DNA of 47,898 nt. Origin: a virus. The number at the start of each line of letters is the position of its first letter. The stretch's first letter is position 1. The notes under the pieces were generated by a model. The model searched no databases. It saw nothing but the letters and a program-made list of their open reading frames with translations, and was not told the DNA's origin. Location of the stretch: positions 1 to 47,898 of the IMG/VR virus record IMGVR_UViG_3300033153_010864. One strand, written 5' to 3'. The translations under genes were made by a program, and so were the position numbers. This document shows, one piece after another, positions 733-47,565 of the stretch.

Positions 733-2388
733 ATGTTCGATCTCAGCAAAATTGAAAAATATCGCCCAGTCGAAAAATTCCGAGAAGGACAAAAAGAATG
801 TATAGAAGCAGTCCTAACAGCATTCGATAAAGGAAAACGCTTCGTCATCCTAGAAGCCCCAACAGGATCTGGAAAATCTGTCGTCGCAATGACTATAGCC
901 GAATTCTTCCATGATACCTTCTATTTAACAATCCAAAAAATCCTACAAGACCAACTAACTAAAGATTTCGCATCAACCGACATCAAATCCTTAAAAGGAC
1001 GAAACGCCTACACGTGCAATTATTGGAATACCTACGTCGAACGCAACCGCGACAAACCAATAAAAATGAAAATGATGGATAAAGACCTCAAAAACCCACA
1101 ATTACGCCAGACATACGACAACAAAATGCTACCATGCAGCGAAGGCGTATGCCTAATAAAAGAATCCAAAACCAAAAGCCAACTATGCTTCCCAACACCA
1201 GGACAAACCTTATGTCCATACTACCAAGCAATAGAAGAAGCCAAAGCATCTAAAACCTGCATAATGAACTTCCACTCATTCTTATTCCAAACCAGCATCA
1301 CACACCACTTCAATAATAGAGAACTAATGATCATAGACGAAGGACACAACAGCGAACCACAACTAATGAACTTCGTCTCATTATCAATTACAGATAAACT
1401 ATTCAAAAGAAACAACAATATAGACTTCCCAAAATTAGACCACGCAGAACAATACGCACAATACTTCGACTCAATAAAACTACATGAATTATTAAACGAC
1501 CACATCAGATATCTGCGCTACACCAACAAACCGAAAGAAGCAGATCAATGGAGACAAATCTTACTACAATATACCATCTTCCTAGGCAGCGTCGACTCAG
1601 GAAACTGGATCCCAAAATTCGAAAAGAAAAAAGGACATAACAAAGTAACACTCAAACCAATCTTCGTAGATCACCACGCCAACGAATACTTATTTAAACA
1701 CGCAGATAAAATATTAATAATGAGCGCAACAATCCTATCGCCCAAAATAATATACGAATCATTAGGTATAAACCCAACAGACGCCTACGCCTACAGAATG
1801 AAGAATAGATTCCCAAAAGAAAACAGACCAATCTACTTCACCCCAGCCGGAAGTATGAGCTACAAAAACAAAACAAAAACCAAACCCAAACTACTAACAG
1901 CAACAGTAAAAGTATGCGACAATTATAAAGACAAAAAAGGAATTATCCATACACATAATTTCGAAATAGCAGAATACTTCATCGACAATGGACCAAAAAG
2001 ATTCACAGAACGAATCCTATACCAAAAACACTTCAGAACCAAAGACGAACTATTCAAAGAACACGCCAAACGAACAAATGGAATCATAGTCGCACCAGCA
2101 ATGCACGAAGGCCTAGACCTAAAAGACGACCTAAGCAGATTCCAAATTATATGTAAAGTGCCATTCCCAGCACTAGGAGACAACGAACAACTCCGCACCA
2201 GAATGCAACTATCACCAGACTATTATGACTGGTTAACAGCCCTAAAACTAGTCCAATCATACGGAAGAAGCGTAAGAAGCGAAGAAGATTGGGCAGACAC
2301 ATTCATCCTAGACGCAGATTTTGGATTCTTCAAAAAGAAAGCAAGAAAACAACTACCAAAATGGTTCCTAGCAGTTATCCAGGAATAA
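733..2388 (+). CDS. DinG/XPD-like iron-sulfur DNA helicase
   Basis: A 551-residue superfamily 2 helicase. Walker A is EAPTGSGKS (41-49) and the DEGH box is at 202-205. Between them are cysteines 95, 135, 140, 152 and 161, placed like the four-cysteine Fe-S domain of the XPD/DinG family. C-terminal helicase motifs include APAMHEGLDL and QSYGRSVRSEEDW. Such enzymes unwind DNA 5' to 3' using ATP, so a role in phage replication or repair is inferred. An AAGGA ribosome site precedes the start. Its codons favour A and C at third positions, unlike most plus-strand genes downstream. The end overlaps the convergent virion gene by 14 bases. Confidence 0.9.
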   Translation: MFDLSKIEKYRPVEKFREGQKECIEAVLTAFDKGKRFVILEAPTGSGKSVVAMTIAEFFHDTFYLTIQKILQDQLTKDFASTDIKSLKGRNAYTCNYWNTYVERNRDKPIKMKMMDKDLKNPQLRQTYDNKMLPCSEGVCLIKESKTKSQLCFPTPGQTLCPYYQAIEEAKASKTCIMNFHSFLFQTSITHHFNNRELMIIDEGHNSEPQLMNFVSLSITDKLFKRNNNIDFPKLDHAEQYAQYFDSIKLHELLNDHIRYLRYTNKPKEADQWRQILLQYTIFLGSVDSGNWIPKFEKKKGHNKVTLKPIFVDHHANEYLFKHADKILIMSATILSPKIIYESLGINPTDAYAYRMKNRFPKENRPIYFTPAGSMSYKNKTKTKPKLLTATVKVCDNYKDKKGIIHTHNFEIAEYFIDNGPKRFTERILYQKHFRTKDELFKEHAKRTNGIIVAPAMHEGLDLKDDLSRFQIICKVPFPALGDNEQLRTRMQLSPDYYDWLTALKLVQSYGRSVRSEEDWADTFILDADFGFFKKKARKQLPKWFLAVIQE

Positions 2389-8768: not shown

Positions 8769-10319
8769 ATGGGAAATCAAATTATAGAAGCAGCTGTAAA
8801 TCTGACAGAATCAGAGCGTATAAAAGCCGCTAAACAATATCCCGGACCAAGCTCGTTTGTCCACCTACATAACCATACATTGTTTAGTCCATTAGATGGA
8901 ATTGCTACTCCAGAAGAATATTTCTCAGCGGCTTATCATCTTGGTCACCCGGCATTGAGCATCACCGACCATGGTAGTCTTGCAAGTTTTCCAGACGCAT
9001 ATTTTGCTTCTAAAAAGAACAAGATTAAATTTATTCCCGGTTGCGAGACCTACTTCTCACAAGATCACCTAAAATTAATAGAATTGAAGAAAAATCCAAA
9101 ATTCCAACTTGGTTCGGTACGTCCAAATTATAATAAATTGGTATTCACTTTTGATGATCTTATAGCAGAAGAAACTTATAGTGATTTGAGACGCAATCGC
9201 CATCTTACGATCATGGCGATGAATATGGTAGGTTATAAGAATCTAATACATCTTACTTCAGACGCATGGAAAATAGGATTTTATTATAAACCGAGAATAT
9301 GGTTTGAACAAATCGAAAAACATCATGAAGGACTGATTTGTCTATCTGGATGTCTTAATGGTCCAATTTGCCATAATTTGAGAATGTCTGCATTCTGGCG
9401 CAGTATAGCAGGTGGTGTTATAAATATTATTGAAAGGCATGTTGGCGGTGTATCCAAAAAGATACAATTGGATATATCCAGATCGGATGCTAAAAAGAGA
9501 GCTGTTCATTATGGAATGAAAGCTTTGAAATGGATTCAGAGATTTCGGAACCTGTTAAATGATAGGTTCTATTTAGAAATGCAGATGCCTGGAGACGAAA
9601 TCCCATTTGGCAAAGAAGCATTTAGGCAGATTGCAGTCATCTCTAAGGAAACTGGTATTCCAGCGGTTATAACAAATGATTGTCATTATACGTCGCGTCA
9701 AGATTTCAGAGTACAGAAATGTATGATGGCAGTAGATCAAGGCAAGACTATGAATGACCCAACTCTGTTCCATGTTAATTCTGATGAGCAATTCTTCAAG
9801 AGCAGAGCCCAATTAAGAAAGACTTTTATTGAAGGAAGCTATAATGAGTTCGTTTCTATAGAGCAATTTGAGGAATATTGCGATAATACAATAGCTTTAT
9901 CAGAAAAATGTGACACATTTAATCCTAATTTAGAGCCAAAATTGCCAAGTATTCCAAATGCAGATGAAAAATTAACAGAATTGGTATATAGTGCTTTAAA
10001 AGAAAAGGGCCTATGGGATAAATCTGATAAATATCTCATGGATGGTGAGATGATTACTTATAGAGGATTAGCTGAGAAAGAGCTTATGCGATATATTAGT
10101 AAAGGTTTTGCATCTTATTTCTTGATCATCAGAGATCTTGTAAAATATTCGCGTGACCAAGATTGGCCGGTTGGACCTGGTCGTGGTAGTGCTGGCGGTT
10201 CGTTAGTGTGTTATTTATTGGGTGTTCATGATCTTGACCCTATTGCGTGGGGATTAAGCTCCGTGAGGTTTATGGGGGATAGTAGAGGTGGTCATATGTT
10301 ACGAGTCACGATGGATTAA
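8769..10319 (+). CDS. dnaE: DNA polymerase III alpha subunit, N-terminal piece (PHP and start of palm)
   Basis: A 516-residue N-terminal part of a C-family polymerase. The PHP domain is intact: HLHNH (32-36), TDH (66-68), GCE (91-93), LSGC and TNDCHY, so metal-dependent 3'-5' exonuclease activity is possible. The chain runs on to the palm nucleotide-binding motif GPGRGS (469-474) and DLDPI, then ends in SRGGHMLRVTMD. The catalytic aspartates are not here; they lie in the gene at 11509. About 1.2 kb with three small genes separates the two. The pieces presumably assemble into one polymerase. No ribosome site is obvious before the start. Confidence 0.88.
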   Translation: MGNQIIEAAVNLTESERIKAAKQYPGPSSFVHLHNHTLFSPLDGIATPEEYFSAAYHLGHPALSITDHGSLASFPDAYFASKKNKIKFIPGCETYFSQDHLKLIELKKNPKFQLGSVRPNYNKLVFTFDDLIAEETYSDLRRNRHLTIMAMNMVGYKNLIHLTSDAWKIGFYYKPRIWFEQIEKHHEGLICLSGCLNGPICHNLRMSAFWRSIAGGVINIIERHVGGVSKKIQLDISRSDAKKRAVHYGMKALKWIQRFRNLLNDRFYLEMQMPGDEIPFGKEAFRQIAVISKETGIPAVITNDCHYTSRQDFRVQKCMMAVDQGKTMNDPTLFHVNSDEQFFKSRAQLRKTFIEGSYNEFVSIEQFEEYCDNTIALSEKCDTFNPNLEPKLPSIPNADEKLTELVYSALKEKGLWDKSDKYLMDGEMITYRGLAEKELMRYISKGFASYFLIIRDLVKYSRDQDWPVGPGRGSAGGSLVCYLLGVHDLDPIAWGLSSVRFMGDSRGGHMLRVTMD

Positions 10320-11508: not shown

Positions 11509-14022
11509 ATGCCGAATATAGAGACGTTCAAAGAACTCCGTCGTTGTGCTATCCGCACATTAAAAGAAAAGGGATTCGCTACTAAGGTAGAATATATCAA
11601 ACGGCTTGACTTCGAACTTATAGAAATAAACAAACAAGGTGCTAATCGTTATTGGCTTAGAAATTATAATGAAGGTAAGAAATGGGAGCACAATAAAAAT
11701 GGACTAATTTTCCCGTTTTTGTTAGGTATGACGCCGATAGATCCAATAAGTTTTGGAACCAAACACAAAATTGAGTATCATCCTGATTTCCCAGATATTG
11801 ATATTGACTTTTTACCACACGCTAGAGATCCAGTCAAGAAGTATGCTGAAGAAAAATATGGTTCTCAATATGTCTGTAGTGTTGGGTTGTGGCTCAGATA
11901 TCATCCTAAATTAGCATTGCAAGATGCTGCAGCTGCTCTTGGTAAGAACAGATATGAAGTAATTGCAATGGCCAAGACCTTACCGGATGAATTCGATACG
12001 ATGACGTTTGAGCAATCAGTAGGGGAATTTTCTAATTTTGCTGAATTTGCAAAAGACAATCCTGAAGTCTGTGAATTAGCTTACAAGATGGTTGGCAAGA
12101 TTAAAGCGCAAGGCAGACACGCTGGCGGCCTTATTATTTCTTCTGTGCCGATTAAAGATTATATTCCGCTTACATTGTGTGGAATAGAAGGAAAGAAACA
12201 ATGGACGTCAGCTTGGATTGAAGGAATGGCTGATACTCAATTGTCGAAGTTCGGATTAATCAAATTCGATATTCTGGGATTACGCAACCTGTCATATATA
12301 TGGAATTGTTGTAGGCTAATCAAAAAATCAAAGAATAGTGATATAAAATTTGAGGACCTCGATCCTAGAGATGATCGCGCCGGATGGATATATTTCAAGA
12401 ATGGAAAGAAGAAGAAGAAGATACGATTTAATGATCCAAAAGTATTAAAAGCCGCAGATGATCTCCGGTTAAATTCAATCTTCCAATTTGATACTGATTT
12501 CCAACAGAGTATTGTTAAAAAAGGTGGAGTAAAATCCTTCATGGATCTAGTTATCTATACTAGTCTTGGGCGCCCAGGACCATTGCCGATGATTGATGTC
12601 TATATTGACAACAGAGATAATAAAGAAGCTGAATGGAAAAAAGAATTACATCCAATAATGTTGAATATACTTGATGAGACTAAAGGAGTTTTAACCTTTC
12701 AAGAGCAATTACTGCGGACGTGGACTGAATTGTGCGGATTTACTATGCCTGAGGCAGAAGCGGCACAGAAAGCAGTGAAGAAGAAAAAAGTAGAGATCCT
12801 GGAAGAGATTGGGCCTATGGTTATCAAAGGAGCCGCACTGAATCTAGGGCAGGAGAAAGCAAAGAAATTGTGGGACAATATGATATCGTTCGGTCGATAT
12901 TGTTTTAATAAAGCCCATGCTGTTGCATATATTGTTATTGCTTATAGATGTCTATGGCTCAAGACTCATTTCCCAGCTGAATGGTGGGCGGCTGTATTAT
13001 CTGAATGCCCAGCGACTAAATTCAATAAATTTATTGGAGCCGCTAGGTCGGAAGGAATAAAATTCGGCTCTATTGATGTACGAAGGTTATCAACGAATTA
13101 TACAGTTGGCGACGATGAAATCATGCCAGGATTAACAAGTATAAAAGGTATTGGTCAATCAATGGCTAAGCAGTTAATAACTGAAGCGGACATAGAACCA
13201 TTCAATATTATAGAAGATATTGTGAACAGGTGTGGAAAGAATAAGACCGCGTTAGAAAGGTTAATTAAACTTGGTGGTTTCGATCATATCAATGTTAATA
13301 GAAAACTATTGTGGCTGTGGTATAGATATAAATATGATAATGGAAAAGATGTCACTAAATTTAGAAAATTAGTTAATGCTTGTTATATATGGGACATAGA
13401 AGTGGTGATGGAAGAACGCAAACGTCAATCTACAGAATATCTAAGGCAATATCCTAAGCGCACTAAAATCCCGAAGAGAATACTGAATTGGATCCCGTCA
13501 ACCCATATAAATAATTATAAACAATATAATCCTAAATTAAATCTTGGCGATTTACAATTGAAAATGGTCAAGAAAATCAATCTCACTTTCCACCAGTTCT
13601 CTATTTTATTTCAAGAACAATACGCTTATTCTGAATTGTTAGAATTTGAGAAAGAATATTTAGGATATTATTGGCATTCTCCTCTTGGTATGTATCATTA
13701 TGATTCTAAGAATAATATAAAGGGAGCTAAGAAGACTGGTACGTTAGAATGCGTAATAGAGGAATCTGAAACTAAGAAGGGAGCGCATGGGGAATATAAA
13801 GTATTGAAAGTAACTGATGGAATTGCTAATGCTCGTGTCAATGTTTGGAACGATGTGTTGATGGATAGCGAAGAGGAATTGTTTGAGAGTGGTATAGGTA
13901 TTCGTATGAGAGTTAAGTATCAAGAGAAATGGCGTAGTTTTTCTGTTAAATCTGGGACAATGGTACTGCCGCTTCCATTGTTGGAAGAAGAAGAATTAGT
14001 CGAAGAACTGGCACAAGTCTAA
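11509..14022 (+). CDS. dnaE: DNA polymerase III alpha subunit, C-terminal piece (catalytic palm, fingers, OB)
   Basis: An 837-residue main catalytic part. Palm aspartates are D98 and D100 in PDIDIDF, with the third Asp in KFDILGLRNL (D254). YTSLGRPGPLP, QEQLLRTW and FNKAHAVAYIVIAYRCLWLK belong to the fingers and active site. A helix-hairpin-helix-like LTSIKGIGQSMAK and an OB-type C-terminal domain (GTLECVIEES onward) follow. The first 90 residues repeat, in degraded form, the region that also ends the first piece (helix pair, YxxRLxxEL, then LLGMTPIDPI), but the GPGRGS motif is gone. The ATG is preceded by an AT-rich region without a ribosome site. Confidence 0.9.
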   Translation: MPNIETFKELRRCAIRTLKEKGFATKVEYIKRLDFELIEINKQGANRYWLRNYNEGKKWEHNKNGLIFPFLLGMTPIDPISFGTKHKIEYHPDFPDIDIDFLPHARDPVKKYAEEKYGSQYVCSVGLWLRYHPKLALQDAAAALGKNRYEVIAMAKTLPDEFDTMTFEQSVGEFSNFAEFAKDNPEVCELAYKMVGKIKAQGRHAGGLIISSVPIKDYIPLTLCGIEGKKQWTSAWIEGMADTQLSKFGLIKFDILGLRNLSYIWNCCRLIKKSKNSDIKFEDLDPRDDRAGWIYFKNGKKKKKIRFNDPKVLKAADDLRLNSIFQFDTDFQQSIVKKGGVKSFMDLVIYTSLGRPGPLPMIDVYIDNRDNKEAEWKKELHPIMLNILDETKGVLTFQEQLLRTWTELCGFTMPEAEAAQKAVKKKKVEILEEIGPMVIKGAALNLGQEKAKKLWDNMISFGRYCFNKAHAVAYIVIAYRCLWLKTHFPAEWWAAVLSECPATKFNKFIGAARSEGIKFGSIDVRRLSTNYTVGDDEIMPGLTSIKGIGQSMAKQLITEADIEPFNIIEDIVNRCGKNKTALERLIKLGGFDHINVNRKLLWLWYRYKYDNGKDVTKFRKLVNACYIWDIEVVMEERKRQSTEYLRQYPKRTKIPKRILNWIPSTHINNYKQYNPKLNLGDLQLKMVKKINLTFHQFSILFQEQYAYSELLEFEKEYLGYYWHSPLGMYHYDSKNNIKGAKKTGTLECVIEESETKKGAHGEYKVLKVTDGIANARVNVWNDVLMDSEEELFESGIGIRMRVKYQEKWRSFSVKSGTMVLPLPLLEEEELVEELAQV

Positions 14023-40467: not shown

Positions 40468-40494
40468 TAGTAATTGTTGCTGTATTTAATAAAT

Positions 40495-40914
40495 ATGGCG
40501 AAGAAGAAGAAAAAGAAAAAGAAAAAACCCAACATAACAACTATTAAATGTGTTGATTGTGGTATTAATCGCAAAGTCGGCAACGCACAATCTCATTTAA
40601 TCGTTAGATGCATTGAATGCCAAAAAGAAATGGTTCGTAAAAGAAATCGCGAAGGCTATCGTCGTCGTAAAGGATTACCATTGGATTATGACCCAGATAA
40701 GGTTAAGAAAGAAAAAAAGACCGGGAGAACCAAAAAGAAAGACAAGAGCAGATGGCTCTCCCAACCAGGATCAGAGCCTGAGCTTGATCCTGTGCCTAAA
40801 GAATTAATACCAGAATTAACACCAGAAGAAAAAATAGCGCTTGACAAACGCAGAGCTGGTATTATCAAATTGCTTGATTTATTGGATAGTGATTATGTTA
40901 TAGATGATTGGTAA
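40495..40914 (+). CDS. zinc-knuckle protein with N-terminal poly-lysine
   Basis: A protein of about 139 residues. ATG 40495 gives MAKKKKKKKKK, a lysine run coded by AAG/AAA repeats. Then CVDCG and CIECQ knuckles about 23 residues apart form a zinc site in a basic region (RKRNREGYRRRKG). The C-terminal half is a helical acidic domain. Could bind nucleic acid. A start seven codons upstream is also open. Its end overlaps the convergent Nudix gene by 17 bases. Confidence 0.65.
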   Translation: MAKKKKKKKKKPNITTIKCVDCGINRKVGNAQSHLIVRCIECQKEMVRKRNREGYRRRKGLPLDYDPDKVKKEKKTGRTKKKDKSRWLSQPGSEPELDPVPKELIPELTPEEKIALDKRRAGIIKLLDLLDSDYVIDDW

Positions 40915-44090: not shown

Positions 44091-44735
44091 ATGGATCGAA
44101 TAAGAGTGGAACAGCCATTCATGTTGTATGCGGAATGTACTGTAAATTATGATGGAAGAGCAAAATCAACTCTAGAAAATGGTAAACACTTAATTATACA
44201 CAAAAACGATGGTACATTATTAATTCATGGCGGAAGATTGTGCACGCCACTCAACTACCAGCCGCCAGGAGCTATAATGTACAAAAAGAAGAATAAGTTA
44301 ATATCTAAACGCAACAATGAAATCATTATTATTGCAATAAACGAAATTATTACTTATGAAGAATTACACCAATGGTCAGCAAAAAAAATAGCAATTAGCA
44401 AGACAGAAAAGGAACTACGCGACCATATTGTCGCTCATTTCTATGAGATATTCGGATTTCATCCTGTAGAAATATATATAGAATTTGCTACACCAGTTGG
44501 ACATATCGACATTCTAGCTATAGATGAATATAACATATATCATGTAATAGAAGTTAAGCGCGGAAAGGCTAGTCTGGCATCATGCAGTCAATTAGAGAGA
44601 TATTCTAATTATTTTATAGATATAATGAAGACAGTTAGAGATTATTTGACTAGTCCTGATATTAGCAAAGGAGCACTAAATTATGCAAAAAAGGTGCACC
44701 AAACATGGCTTAAAGTCGAACATACCAATTTATAG
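44091..44735 (+). CDS. nucS: NucS/EndoMS-like mismatch endonuclease
   Basis: A 214-residue protein, close to the usual NucS length. The N-terminal domain has YDGRAKSTLENGKHLII, NDGTLLIHGG and PLNYQPPGA, the DNA-binding phrases of the archaeal and actinobacterial family. The C-terminal nuclease has GHIDILA (D140), VIEVKRG (E154, K156), and QLERY (Q167, Y171), the spacing of the RecB-type active site. EndoMS cuts both strands at mismatches and starts repair. In a phage it could proof phage DNA or attack host DNA. I am confident in the family, less in the role. Confidence 0.87.
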   Translation: MDRIRVEQPFMLYAECTVNYDGRAKSTLENGKHLIIHKNDGTLLIHGGRLCTPLNYQPPGAIMYKKKNKLISKRNNEIIIIAINEIITYEELHQWSAKKIAISKTEKELRDHIVAHFYEIFGFHPVEIYIEFATPVGHIDILAIDEYNIYHVIEVKRGKASLASCSQLERYSNYFIDIMKTVRDYLTSPDISKGALNYAKKVHQTWLKVEHTNL

Positions 44736-44769: not shown

Positions 44770-44843
44770 TGGGCTGAGTGGGATTCGAACCCACATACCA
44801 TCACCTTATGAGAGTGCTGCTCAACCAATTGAGCTACCAGCCC
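44770..44843 (-). tRNA. tRNA-Ile2(CAT) candidate (could be read as Met)
   Basis: A cloverleaf with acceptor GGGCTGG/TCAGCCC, D-stem GCTC/GAGC, anticodon loop CTCATAA and T arm GTGGG-TTCGAAT-CCCAC. Discriminator A73, no CCA encoded. The GGGC acceptor, D-arm and loop context resemble tRNA-Ile more than elongator tRNA-Met, and a TilS-like gene lies 2.1 kb away. If lysidine is made at C34 it would read AUA as Ile. The anticodon stem has one mismatch (27-43). A plain tRNA-Met(CAT) remains possible. Confidence 0.8.
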
Positions 44844-44884
44844 GACTTGTTTTATATACTATCTTTTTTGTCTGATTTGTTATA

Positions 44885-44899
44885 TTGTATCTTATACAA
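44885..44899. promoter_or_regulatory. small inverted repeat before the AAA+ ATPase
   Basis: TTGTAT-CTT-ATACAA is an exact 6-bp inverted repeat 15 bases before the ATPase start. It may be an operator; evidence is only its symmetry and place. Confidence 0.25.
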
Positions 44900-44913
44900 C
44901 AACAGAAATCGAT

Positions 44914-45906
44914 ATGAATAAAGACGACACAGAGCTGACCAAAATACTTAAAAAAAATCCAATAAGAACTAAGACCGCTAGATTAAGAGAATCAAAAAGC
45001 TTTCCCGTCTCAGCGGAAGAGCATCCGCATCCTCATATGTCTGACATTTATTGCCAATGGATGACATCTAATGGATTTTTATTTCAACCGGCTAAGAATA
45101 CATCATCAATCCTATCGCCTGGAGTATACGATATCGGTGAAGATGTATACGGCAATATACATTTTGAACTTATCAAAGTGAATTTGGACGGATTAATTAA
45201 ATTGCCAGATTCGACTTCTAACAAAGTAATCGATGAGATTAAAAAATTCTGGAATATGCATGATATTTACAAAAAGCACAAAATCGACTATAAGCGTGGA
45301 ATCTGTCTGTGGGGTCCTCCTGGTTCCGGCAAATCATGTACTGTGAAATTTGTTATGCGTGACGTAATCAATCTTGGTGGCATAGCGATAAATTTCACTC
45401 ATCCTACAAGATTCATTAGTGGAATTAGAATCTTCAGAGAAATTCAACCAGATACGCCAGTTGTTGTTTTAATGGAAGATATCGATAATATTATTGAACA
45501 ATATGATGAATCAATAGTCTTAAATTTCCTAGATGGCATCAATTCTATCGAAAATGTAGTATTTTTAGCTACTACCAATTATCCAGAAAAATTAGGAGCC
45601 AGAATAATTAATAGACCAAGTAGGTTTGACAAAAGATTCAAAATAGGACATCCCAACGCTAACGCCAGATTAGCTTATTTTCAATATTTAATTAATGAAT
45701 CTGGTATTGAGCCTATAGATCTGGATAGGTGGGTAGAAGATACTCACGGATTTTCTATAGCACATCTTAAAGAATTATATGTAGCCACAACAATATTAGG
45801 TGACAATTACGAAGATACTATAGGGACATTGCGTGGTATGAGTGAAAATATGTCTTCTAACAATTATGACGAAAATAGATTTGGATTTATAGATAATGAA
45901 CACTGA
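44914..45906 (+). CDS. AAA+ ATPase
   Basis: A 330-residue protein. Walker A GPPGSGKS (134-141), Walker B VVVLMEDID (about 185-193), sensor-1 FLATTNYP, arginine region RPSRFDKRFKIG. The arrangement is that of classic FtsH/CDC48/BCS1-like AAA ATPases (SRH). The first 120 residues are an unrelated N-domain. No protease zinc motif or membrane segment, so it may be an unfoldase or remodeller for phage or host complexes. The start has no evident ribosome site. Confidence 0.88.
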   Translation: MNKDDTELTKILKKNPIRTKTARLRESKSFPVSAEEHPHPHMSDIYCQWMTSNGFLFQPAKNTSSILSPGVYDIGEDVYGNIHFELIKVNLDGLIKLPDSTSNKVIDEIKKFWNMHDIYKKHKIDYKRGICLWGPPGSGKSCTVKFVMRDVINLGGIAINFTHPTRFISGIRIFREIQPDTPVVVLMEDIDNIIEQYDESIVLNFLDGINSIENVVFLATTNYPEKLGARIINRPSRFDKRFKIGHPNANARLAYFQYLINESGIEPIDLDRWVEDTHGFSIAHLKELYVATTILGDNYEDTIGTLRGMSENMSSNNYDENRFGFIDNEH

Positions 45907-45957
45907 AGATGAAATTCTAGGGGAATGGATTTATTGTAACTTCAATTTAAACTACTG

Positions 45958-46179
45958 ATGGATCAAATGATTAAATTAACTAAAGAAGAAATAACAGCCC
46001 TTAAACATGTTGTTCAAGAATTAGCTCGCCGTATGGGGGAAGACGAAATAGGAACTTTTATTTATACATCTGGTTCCTTAGTTCCAAATGTAGTAGATCT
46101 TTGGGATAAAATACATGATAATAGTTATACTATTGATGAAATTGCAGAGATTCTCAAGGCGCAGAGACAAATTAAGTAG
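45958..46179 (+). CDS. hypothetical small helical protein
   Basis: A 73-residue, all-helical protein (KLTKEEITALKHVVQELARRM, YTIDEIAEILKAQRQIK). No motif recognised. A second in-frame ATG (45967) is an alternative start. Lies 51 bases after the ATPase gene. Confidence 0.55.
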   Translation: MDQMIKLTKEEITALKHVVQELARRMGEDEIGTFIYTSGSLVPNVVDLWDKIHDNSYTIDEIAEILKAQRQIK

Positions 46180-46219
46180 AAAAAGTTAAAACTAAATAAA
46201 CTTTTGATACAATAGCTGT

Positions 46220-46948
46220 ATGAAAATTATTTCTGATTTCCATGATTATTATGATTCTGTTATGAAGATGGGCGGATTTGATGATGGAATATTATATCTA
46301 AGAAAAAGAGAAGAAGTAGAATCGCCTGGTTTTCCTCTGGTTGGCGGTTATTGGAAGCGACATACCTGGCTGATTTTCAAAATAGACATTGAGTCATATG
46401 TCGTTGGATTTTGCGGAAAGATCTATAGTATAGTCGAATTGCGAACTGATTATCGTGGCGAACCAAAGAAGAAATTATGTTTCAATGTTGAAGAAGTAGA
46501 CGAATTCATTAAGTCTTATTTCAAGCAGAAACAGATTGCTGACTATTACAAAAAGGGTTGGCCCAAGAGACCATCTTGGCCATCTGAATATCAGCGATCT
46601 AAATTTGAGAAATTCTTCAATAAAGTTGAAGAATTAAAGGACAAATATGTCGAATTCTTTTTAGAGAAAAAGTGTCCAATTTTCGTTGTCTACTCAACTA
46701 AGTATCAGAAAGTAATACTCAATGATCGCCTCGCTGACCTAGAATTCTTCAAAATCTTCGATACATATACGACCTTCCAGGAACTCCAGATGTATCTTGG
46801 GGGTTTGGCTAATCCAGAAAAAGAAATCCCACATGTATCTAATGAAGACTTGCTAATCGCAAAAGGCTTTGATAAGAAATGGAGTTTCCGGAGGCCGCCG
46901 CAAAAGAAGAAGAAGAAGAAGAAGAAGAAGAAAAAGAAAAAGAAATGA
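46220..46948 (+). CDS. hypothetical protein with C-terminal poly-lysine
   Basis: A 242-residue protein with alternating strand/helix core (HTWLIFKIDIESYVVGFCG, CPIFVVYSTKYQKVIL), ending in about 15 consecutive lysines from an AAG/AAA tract. The final ATGA couples it to the TilS-like gene. Basic tail suggests nucleic-acid (perhaps tRNA) contact, but the core matches nothing I know. Confidence 0.6.
   Translation: MKIISDFHDYYDSVMKMGGFDDGILYLRKREEVESPGFPLVGGYWKRHTWLIFKIDIESYVVGFCGKIYSIVELRTDYRGEPKKKLCFNVEEVDEFIKSYFKQKQIADYYKKGWPKRPSWPSEYQRSKFEKFFNKVEELKDKYVEFFLEKKCPIFVVYSTKYQKVILNDRLADLEFFKIFDTYTTFQELQMYLGGLANPEKEIPHVSNEDLLIAKGFDKKWSFRRPPQKKKKKKKKKKKKKK
46902..46944 (+). repeat. AAG microsatellite read as poly-Lys and potentially poly-Glu
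   Basis: An AAG/AAA tract ends one gene as lysines. In the frame of the next gene it reads GAA, so an upstream start at 46879 would give a glutamate-rich N-terminus. A unit gain or loss keeps both frames open. Confidence 0.85.
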
Positions 46949-47565
46949 TCAGATTGCTTGGAAAAGCCAGAGAAATCAATAATATAGCCGTTTCTGGTGG
47001 TATAGATTCAATGGCATCTATACATTTTCTTAGAAACGGCAAGCATCAACCTACGATTTTGCATTTCCACCATGGTACAAAACATTCAGAAAAAGCACAT
47101 CAATTTGTAATTGACTATTGCAAATCAAATTCAATAAAATTCAAATTGGGATTCATCCAAGGACAGAAACCAAAAGAATTGTCTTGGGAGGAATGGTGGA
47201 GGAATGAAAGATATAAATTCTTCCACTCATTTGTAGGAAATGTCGCAACCTGCCATCACTTAAACGATGTTGCTGAAACGTGGCTAATGGGTGCTATTCA
47301 TGGTAGAACCAAATTGATCCCATTCAGAAACCGCAATGTTATTAGGCCATTCCTACTAACTCCACAGAGTGTGCTAAGAGAATGGGCAGAGAAATATCAA
47401 TTGTGTTGGAGTCAAGATCATTCTAACTTTGATATGCGCTACGACAGAAATAGGATTAGGTTAATGATAATGCCAGCGGTCGAAAAGATCAATCCTGGAT
47501 TTCTTAAGGTAATCTATAAGAAAGTAAGAGAAGCTTATGAACAAGAAAATACGCCAGTTACTTGA
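46945..47565 (+). CDS. tilS: TilS-like tRNA(Ile)-lysidine synthetase
   Basis: A protein of about 206 residues. SGGIDS (17-22) is the PP-loop ATP pyrophosphatase motif. HFHHGTKHSEKAHQFVIDYC, TCHHLNDVAETWLMGAIHG, RNVIRPFLLTPQSVLREWA and DRNRIRLMIMPAVEKINPGF match the N-terminal catalytic domain of TilS, including the Asn/Asp helix and the RNxIR stretch. TilS puts lysidine at C34 of tRNA-Ile2, switching it from AUG to AUA. The C-terminal TilS domains are absent, as in the shortest members. ATG 46945 (ATGA with the previous stop) is preferred over 46879. Confidence 0.87.
   Translation: MIRLLGKAREINNIAVSGGIDSMASIHFLRNGKHQPTILHFHHGTKHSEKAHQFVIDYCKSNSIKFKLGFIQGQKPKELSWEEWWRNERYKFFHSFVGNVATCHHLNDVAETWLMGAIHGRTKLIPFRNRNVIRPFLLTPQSVLREWAEKYQLCWSQDHSNFDMRYDRNRIRLMIMPAVEKINPGFLKVIYKKVREAYEQENTPVT

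Follow-up and report, generated by a model that had tools for sequence, protein, structure and literature searches.

TilS, the lysidine synthetase, sorts CAU tRNAs into those that read AUA and those that read AUG, and for this choice the known enzymes rely on C-terminal domains that grip the tRNA. Bacterial TilS proteins have either two such domains (type I) or one (type II), and these contact tRNA-Ile2 (PMC12514573). In T4-like phages a CAU tRNA with Ile2 signatures, predicted to be lysidine-modified, was recognised in 2006, but the passages of that paper on this tRNA describe no phage TilS and presume the host enzyme to be the modifier (PMC1524935). Lysidine has been detected on a CAU tRNA of a vibriophage, according to the passage of PMC13191261 that cites the work. 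A phage TilS was reported in 2019 from the Pseudomonas jumbo phage MIJ3 as new to phages and of unknown function, and the TilS passages of that report mention neither missing domains nor a tRNA partner (PMC6892783). A phage-encoded lysidine synthetase was also noted in 2020 in pelagimyophages of group PMP-A (PMC7029224), which we can set beside the present enzyme by description only. Giant viruses have TilS proteins too, as in Dasosvirus (696 aa) and haptophyte viruses, but these are viruses of eukaryotes, and the protein whose length is given is longer than the present one and about 24% identical. Here we describe the IMG/VR record IMGVR_UViG_3300033153_010864, positions 1-47,898 (47,898 bases, hereafter the window), which carries both a tRNA gene with anticodon CAU and a gene for a TilS-type enzyme reduced to its catalytic domain, which we call mini-TilS. 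This pair had been picked out in a first-pass annotation made from the sequence alone; it is real, and relatives in other phages give it firmer footing than the window by itself. We consider it likely, with a probability of roughly 0.78, that the phage brings its own AUA-decoding kit, consisting of a tRNA-Ile2 and mini-TilS.

The tilS-type gene occupies 46945-47565 of the plus strand and encodes 206 aa. Its start is placed at ATG 46945 because this codon overlaps the stop of the upstream gene (ATGA) and agrees with the N-termini of the homologues. A start at 46879, which would give a 228-aa open reading frame (ORF), was rejected, since its poly-Glu leader is an out-of-frame reading of a GAA repeat in the Lys tail of the upstream gene; AAG/GAA microsatellites encoding poly-Lys occur within the genes at 40474-40914 and 46220-46948 (both plus strand), and the latter produces this misleading early start. 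The protein matches TIGR02432 (lysidine_TilS_N) with 116.3 bits against a cut-off of 93.6 (E 1.5e-33) and PF01171 with E 2.5e-31, PHROGs gave no match for it, and the only solved structures among its sequence relatives are TilS, from A. aeolicus, E. coli and Geobacillus. An AlphaFold model built from 59 phage sequences (pLDDT 96.7) aligns with solved TilS structures at Z 20.0-22.8, the best being A. aeolicus TilS (2e21; Z 22.8) over all 206 residues, and five solved TilS entries outrank every other PP-loop enzyme, among them TtuA (Z 15.9-17.5) and LarE (about 12). The TilS profile matches 59 of 59 diverse phage relatives, while the TtcA profile matches 36, weakly. TtcA or another PP-loop family is thus ruled out by the curated profile, the structure and the conserved residues, and the family call of the first-pass annotation, based on the SGGIDS and RNRIR motifs, holds by profile, fold and residues.

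The active-site residues are intact, as established by comparison of 59 phage with 79 bacterial TilS N-domain sequences. The PP-loop SGGIDS (residues 17-22; 46993-47010, plus strand), which would bind ATP, is found in at least 98% of the phage sequences and in all the bacterial ones apart from a variable fourth residue. The HHLND motif (residues 104-108; 47254-47268, plus strand) aligns with the H133/D137 region of A. aeolicus TilS (1wy5), and its H104 and D108 are invariant in phages and bacteria, as are R168, N169 and R172 of the RNRIR motif (residues 168-172; 47446-47460, plus strand). All active-site positions common to bacterial TilS are kept, namely SGGxDS, R86, R89, Y90, H104, D108, E111, R134-P135, D158, N161, R168, N169 and R172. 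Invariant in the phages only are F28, W85, F136 and G185; at the position of W85, 99% of the bacteria compared have Ala. The phage-specific H119, W147 and K192 are present in 86-92% of phage sequences.

Mini-TilS therefore shares with type I and type II TilS the PP-loop catalytic domain, the invariant active-site residues, the fold and the N-domain profile, but it differs in size, the bacterial enzymes being about 290-310 aa or 410-520 aa long, and in belonging to a long-branch clade. Its end at residue 206 corresponds approximately to residue 240 of the A. aeolicus chain, and no C-terminal domain follows, a feature absent from the first-pass annotation. Because there is no C-terminal tRNA-contacting domain, we assign the protein to the TilS N-domain family and not to type I or type II. 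The same architecture is found in all 255 viral homologues fetched, at 175-219 aa. These came from four IMG/VR scans, each of which turned up relatives on about 400 to more than 580 stretches; the searches were seeded with short sequences, so that longer viral TilS of other kinds would have been passed over, and most relatives are metagenomic fragments. The TilS proteins of MIJ3 and PA5oct (Pseudomonas jumbo phages, Wroclawvirus) belong to the same short family, with 203 aa and 46-48% identity to the window protein. Among bacteria, the TilS proteins closest in sequence fall into two length ranges, 288-308 aa and 408-523 aa, with one exception of 655 aa. Two candidates for a bacterial enzyme with the N-terminal domain only were rejected, one (L117, 221 aa) being a frameshifted full-length gene and the other (L194, 97 aa as called) being mis-started, with full-length homology in one frame. 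A separate gene for a C-terminal domain (PF09179, PF11734) was not found in 17 records, with profiles that are insensitive, being positive in 3 and 6 of 14 controls. In a quick maximum-likelihood tree the phage and bacterial sequences are split by one branch with 100% SH-aLRT support, and on these alignments the phage enzymes form one separate clade. The stem of this clade is long (1.14), and the closest bacterial branch in the tree sample is that of the Saccharibacteria, whose TilS are shorter (288-308 aa) and nearest to the phage clade.

The tRNA gene, located at 44770-44843 on the minus strand and without an encoded CCA, is detected by ARAGORN and by Rfam RF00005 (59.6 bits, the cut-off being 29), and a profile classifier places it with the elongator tRNA-Ile2 type. 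The Ile-like acceptor proposed earlier is present as GGGCUGG/UCAGCCC with A73. The tRNA has G1-C72, G3-C70, C4-G69, U5-A68 and C11-G24, with CUCAUAA as anticodon loop, so that the general traits of an elongator-type tRNA-Ile2 (CAU anticodon, paired 1-72, C11-G24 and A73) are there and the initiator traits, unpaired 1-72 and A11-U24, are missing. In the 40 reference CAU tRNAs of the classifier, taken from bacterial genomes and E. coli, initiators have unpaired 1-72 with A11-U24, Met tRNAs all have C3-G70, and Ile2 mostly has C4-G69, a pair seen in none of the bacterial Met tRNAs compared. Leave-one-out classification was correct for 40 of 40, with a smallest margin of 0.2 and with labels from rules that share some of the positions scored. 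By the bacterial profiles Ile2 stands above initiator by about 22 nats and above elongator Met by 2.1 nats. The best fit of all is to the profile of phage tRNAs adjacent to tilS, at -46.9 versus -58.7 for bacterial Ile2, -60.8 for Met and -80.7 for the remaining class. The tRNA does not class as Met, its G3-C70 and C4-G69 pairs being of the Ile2 type. A second CAU tRNA, absent from the first-pass annotation, was detected by ARAGORN at 584-660 on the minus strand; its sequence (U1.U72 mismatch, A11-U24) and the classifier (by 9.2) mark it as an initiator type, and initiator-type tRNAs also occur in several other mini-TilS phages (L099, L108, L371, L365, L368 and L005).

The linkage between the two genes is conserved in relatives. 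Clustering by protein identity gave 118 clusters at 90% and 20 at 60%. In 29 of the 118 a CAU tRNA shares the strand of tilS and is no more than 150 nt from it, at distances of 5-107 nt and downstream of tilS in 26 of these 29. The same holds for 11 of the 20 deeper clusters, so that the adjacency is not a peculiarity confined to a handful of closely related phages. Among the distinct tRNAs within that distance and on the same strand, 31 of 40 have the anticodon CAU; among those lying at a greater distance the share is 34 of 470 (odds ratio 44, p about 1e-23, uncorrected for kinship). Adjacency counts allow for shared descent through the clustering only. Of these 31 adjacent CAU tRNAs 27 are classed as Ile2, four as elongator Met by 0.4-3.5 nats, and none as initiator. 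Pairwise distances among TilS proteins and among adjacent tRNAs correlate (Mantel r 0.58, a value reached in none of 5000 permutations; r 0.37 for pairs below 65% identity), as would be expected if both genes were inherited together. Nor is the arrangement a general habit of tilS, since a CAU tRNA stands beside tilS in only 1 of 80 bacterial loci. That locus is from Saccharibacteria (L180, tRNA at 1565-1641, plus strand), and there 37 nt separate the tRNA from the tilS match that follows it; in L123 and L169, also of this group, a CAU tRNA is within about 1 kb. Of 28 records searched over their whole length, most of them picked for having no adjacent tRNA, 19 contain a CAU tRNA pattern, and the remaining nine are fragments of 78-139 kb. 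Each of the 11 searched records longer than 200 kb has a CAU tRNA that is not of the initiator type; eight of these tRNAs are called Ile2 and three are borderline. The partnership, which the first-pass annotation had inferred from the window, is therefore supported by relatives, which keep both genes. Two huge mini-TilS phages also have an Ile tRNA with anticodon UAU, a second way to read AUA (L004, 5502-5575; L005, 4224-4298).

The codon usage of the window is consistent with a need for such a pair. ATA, earlier described as common, accounts for 40% of Ile codons and has a frequency of 33.8 per 1000 over 14,368 codons. In MIJ3 the frequency is 68.7 per 1000 codons (24-kb region), while in its host species, P. 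aeruginosa, AUA occurs at 0.9 per 1000 and is lacking from the most expressed genes, and TilS is slow, with a kobs/KM of 0.3 versus 5.0 for the E. coli enzyme (PMC12514573). MIJ3 thus uses AUA about 75 times more than its host does. The authors' listing in the MIJ3 report gives its three CAU tRNAs all as tRNA-Met (PMC6892783), but our classifier calls them elongator Met, Ile2 (by 20.6 nats) and weakly initiator, respectively (L003, 2151-2227, 2632-2708 and 4762-4838). The mechanism that we propose for the window phage is as follows. Transcription of the tRNA gene would yield a CAU tRNA-Ile2, which methionyl-tRNA synthetase (MetRS) could charge as a Met tRNA while it is unmodified and which would then decode AUG; unmodified tRNA-Ile2 is known to be charged with Met by MetRS to a varying degree (PMC12514573). 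The 206-aa PP-loop enzyme would activate C34 with ATP and join lysine to it to form lysidine, and the modified tRNA would be charged with isoleucine and read AUA, the codon used heavily by the phage. An added phage tRNA-Ile2 could overload the TilS of an AUA-poor host, which an enzyme of its own would solve. From sequence we infer that mini-TilS is catalytic and takes the phage tRNA as its substrate, and the gain in AUA decoding would come when the host TilS or tRNA-Ile2 is limiting.

Several observations weigh against the proposal that the phage carries its own decoding kit. The tRNA and tilS are 2,101 nt apart, as the 2.1 kb given previously, and on opposite strands, so they do not form one operon here, and in MIJ3 the Ile2 tRNA is 9 kb from tilS. 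The Ile2 call of the window tRNA is narrow at 2.1 nats over elongator Met. Of the two identity pairs of E. coli TilS, which are not universal among bacteria, this tRNA has C4-G69 and lacks C5-G68, and its anticodon stem is irregular (G27.A43, U31.G39). Many tilS fragments, in 69 of the 118 clusters, have no CAU tRNA in their flanks. Finally, mini-TilS is without the C-terminal domains by which known TilS contact tRNA-Ile2, and to judge by its sequence activity cannot be assumed.

These observations leave room for other explanations. The clusters without a flanking CAU tRNA would suit an enzyme that mainly modifies the tRNA-Ile2 of the host and enlarges the modified pool, its link to a phage tRNA being secondary, and the low TilS activity of AUA-poor hosts such as P. 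aeruginosa means that a boost of this kind would help. We regard this as unlikely, however, because the contigs concerned are fragments, while every record above 200 kb has a CAU elongator-type tRNA, and because adjacency with the right isotype recurs across the deep clusters. The narrow margin, the opposite strands and the spacing in the window would also fit an elongator tRNA-Met that lies near tilS by chance, with the phage Ile2, if any, elsewhere. This we consider improbable, since no Met tRNA compared has G3-C70 or C4-G69 and since the tRNA fits best among the tilS-adjacent phage tRNAs; the same arrangement is also found in a near-identical contig, though this represents the same phage population. 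The loss of the discriminating C-terminal domains, which is complete among the viral homologues and is not made good by a separate gene as far as the insensitive profiles can tell, together with the phage-only invariants W85, F136 and G185, might instead suggest relaxed or changed specificity, for example for host tRNA-Met or another substrate, as a device of host takeover. Such a role seems still less probable, given that the adjacent tRNAs are Ile2-type in 27 of 31 cases and never initiator, that the active-site residues are all kept, and that a tRNA-Met turned into an Ile carrier would hurt phage translation too. Least probable of all, and very improbable, is a role in counter-defence, in which the pair would make AUA readable again once the host had cut or depleted its own tRNA-Ile2. 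That phage tRNAs may escape defences which cleave tRNAs has been proposed in general terms (PMC10264068), but that paper has no hits for CAU or lysidine. No host defence against tRNA-Ile2 or TilS turned up in our analysis, which included no search aimed at one, and the high AUA usage already accounts for the gene pair.

The surroundings of the pair contain other genes. A homologue of the NucS endonuclease with both Pfam domains and no PHROG match (44091-44735, plus strand) adjoins the CAU tRNA, and an AAA ATPase gene (PF00004; 44914-45906, plus strand) lies between the tRNA and tilS. Elsewhere in the window, DNA polymerase III alpha seems to be divided between two ORFs, 8769-10319 and 11509-14022 (plus strand), around the conserved GPGRGSAGGSLV / PDFPDIDIDF region, as judged by eye, with small ORFs between the two parts and overlapping ends; this may be a split gene or the remnant of an insertion.

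The domain-only architecture and the tilS-tRNA gene pair are undescribed within the open literature; subscription papers and preprints were outside our search, and priority is not certain. Judged by its sequences, a TilS of the catalytic domain only is widespread in phages, often beside the gene of its likely substrate. We speculate, at somewhat less than even odds, that the bare catalytic domain is a third structural type of TilS which, with a dedicated phage tRNA-Ile2, makes up a co-inherited enzyme-substrate pair. In such a pair the catalytic domain would itself choose the tRNA through phage-specific residues, for instance the invariant W85 and those of a basic C-terminal helix, instead of leaving the choice to C-terminal domains, and this would let AUA-rich phages translate in AUA-poor hosts. 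The small size of the enzyme and the pairing of the genes make this easy to test, and the pair is possibly useful as a portable AUA-decoding module. A large natural family without C-terminal domains would reveal the smallest working TilS and how a catalytic domain alone picks its tRNA. For one tRNA it would also answer an old question about the tRNA genes of phages, in that the tRNA and its modifying enzyme would travel as a pair.

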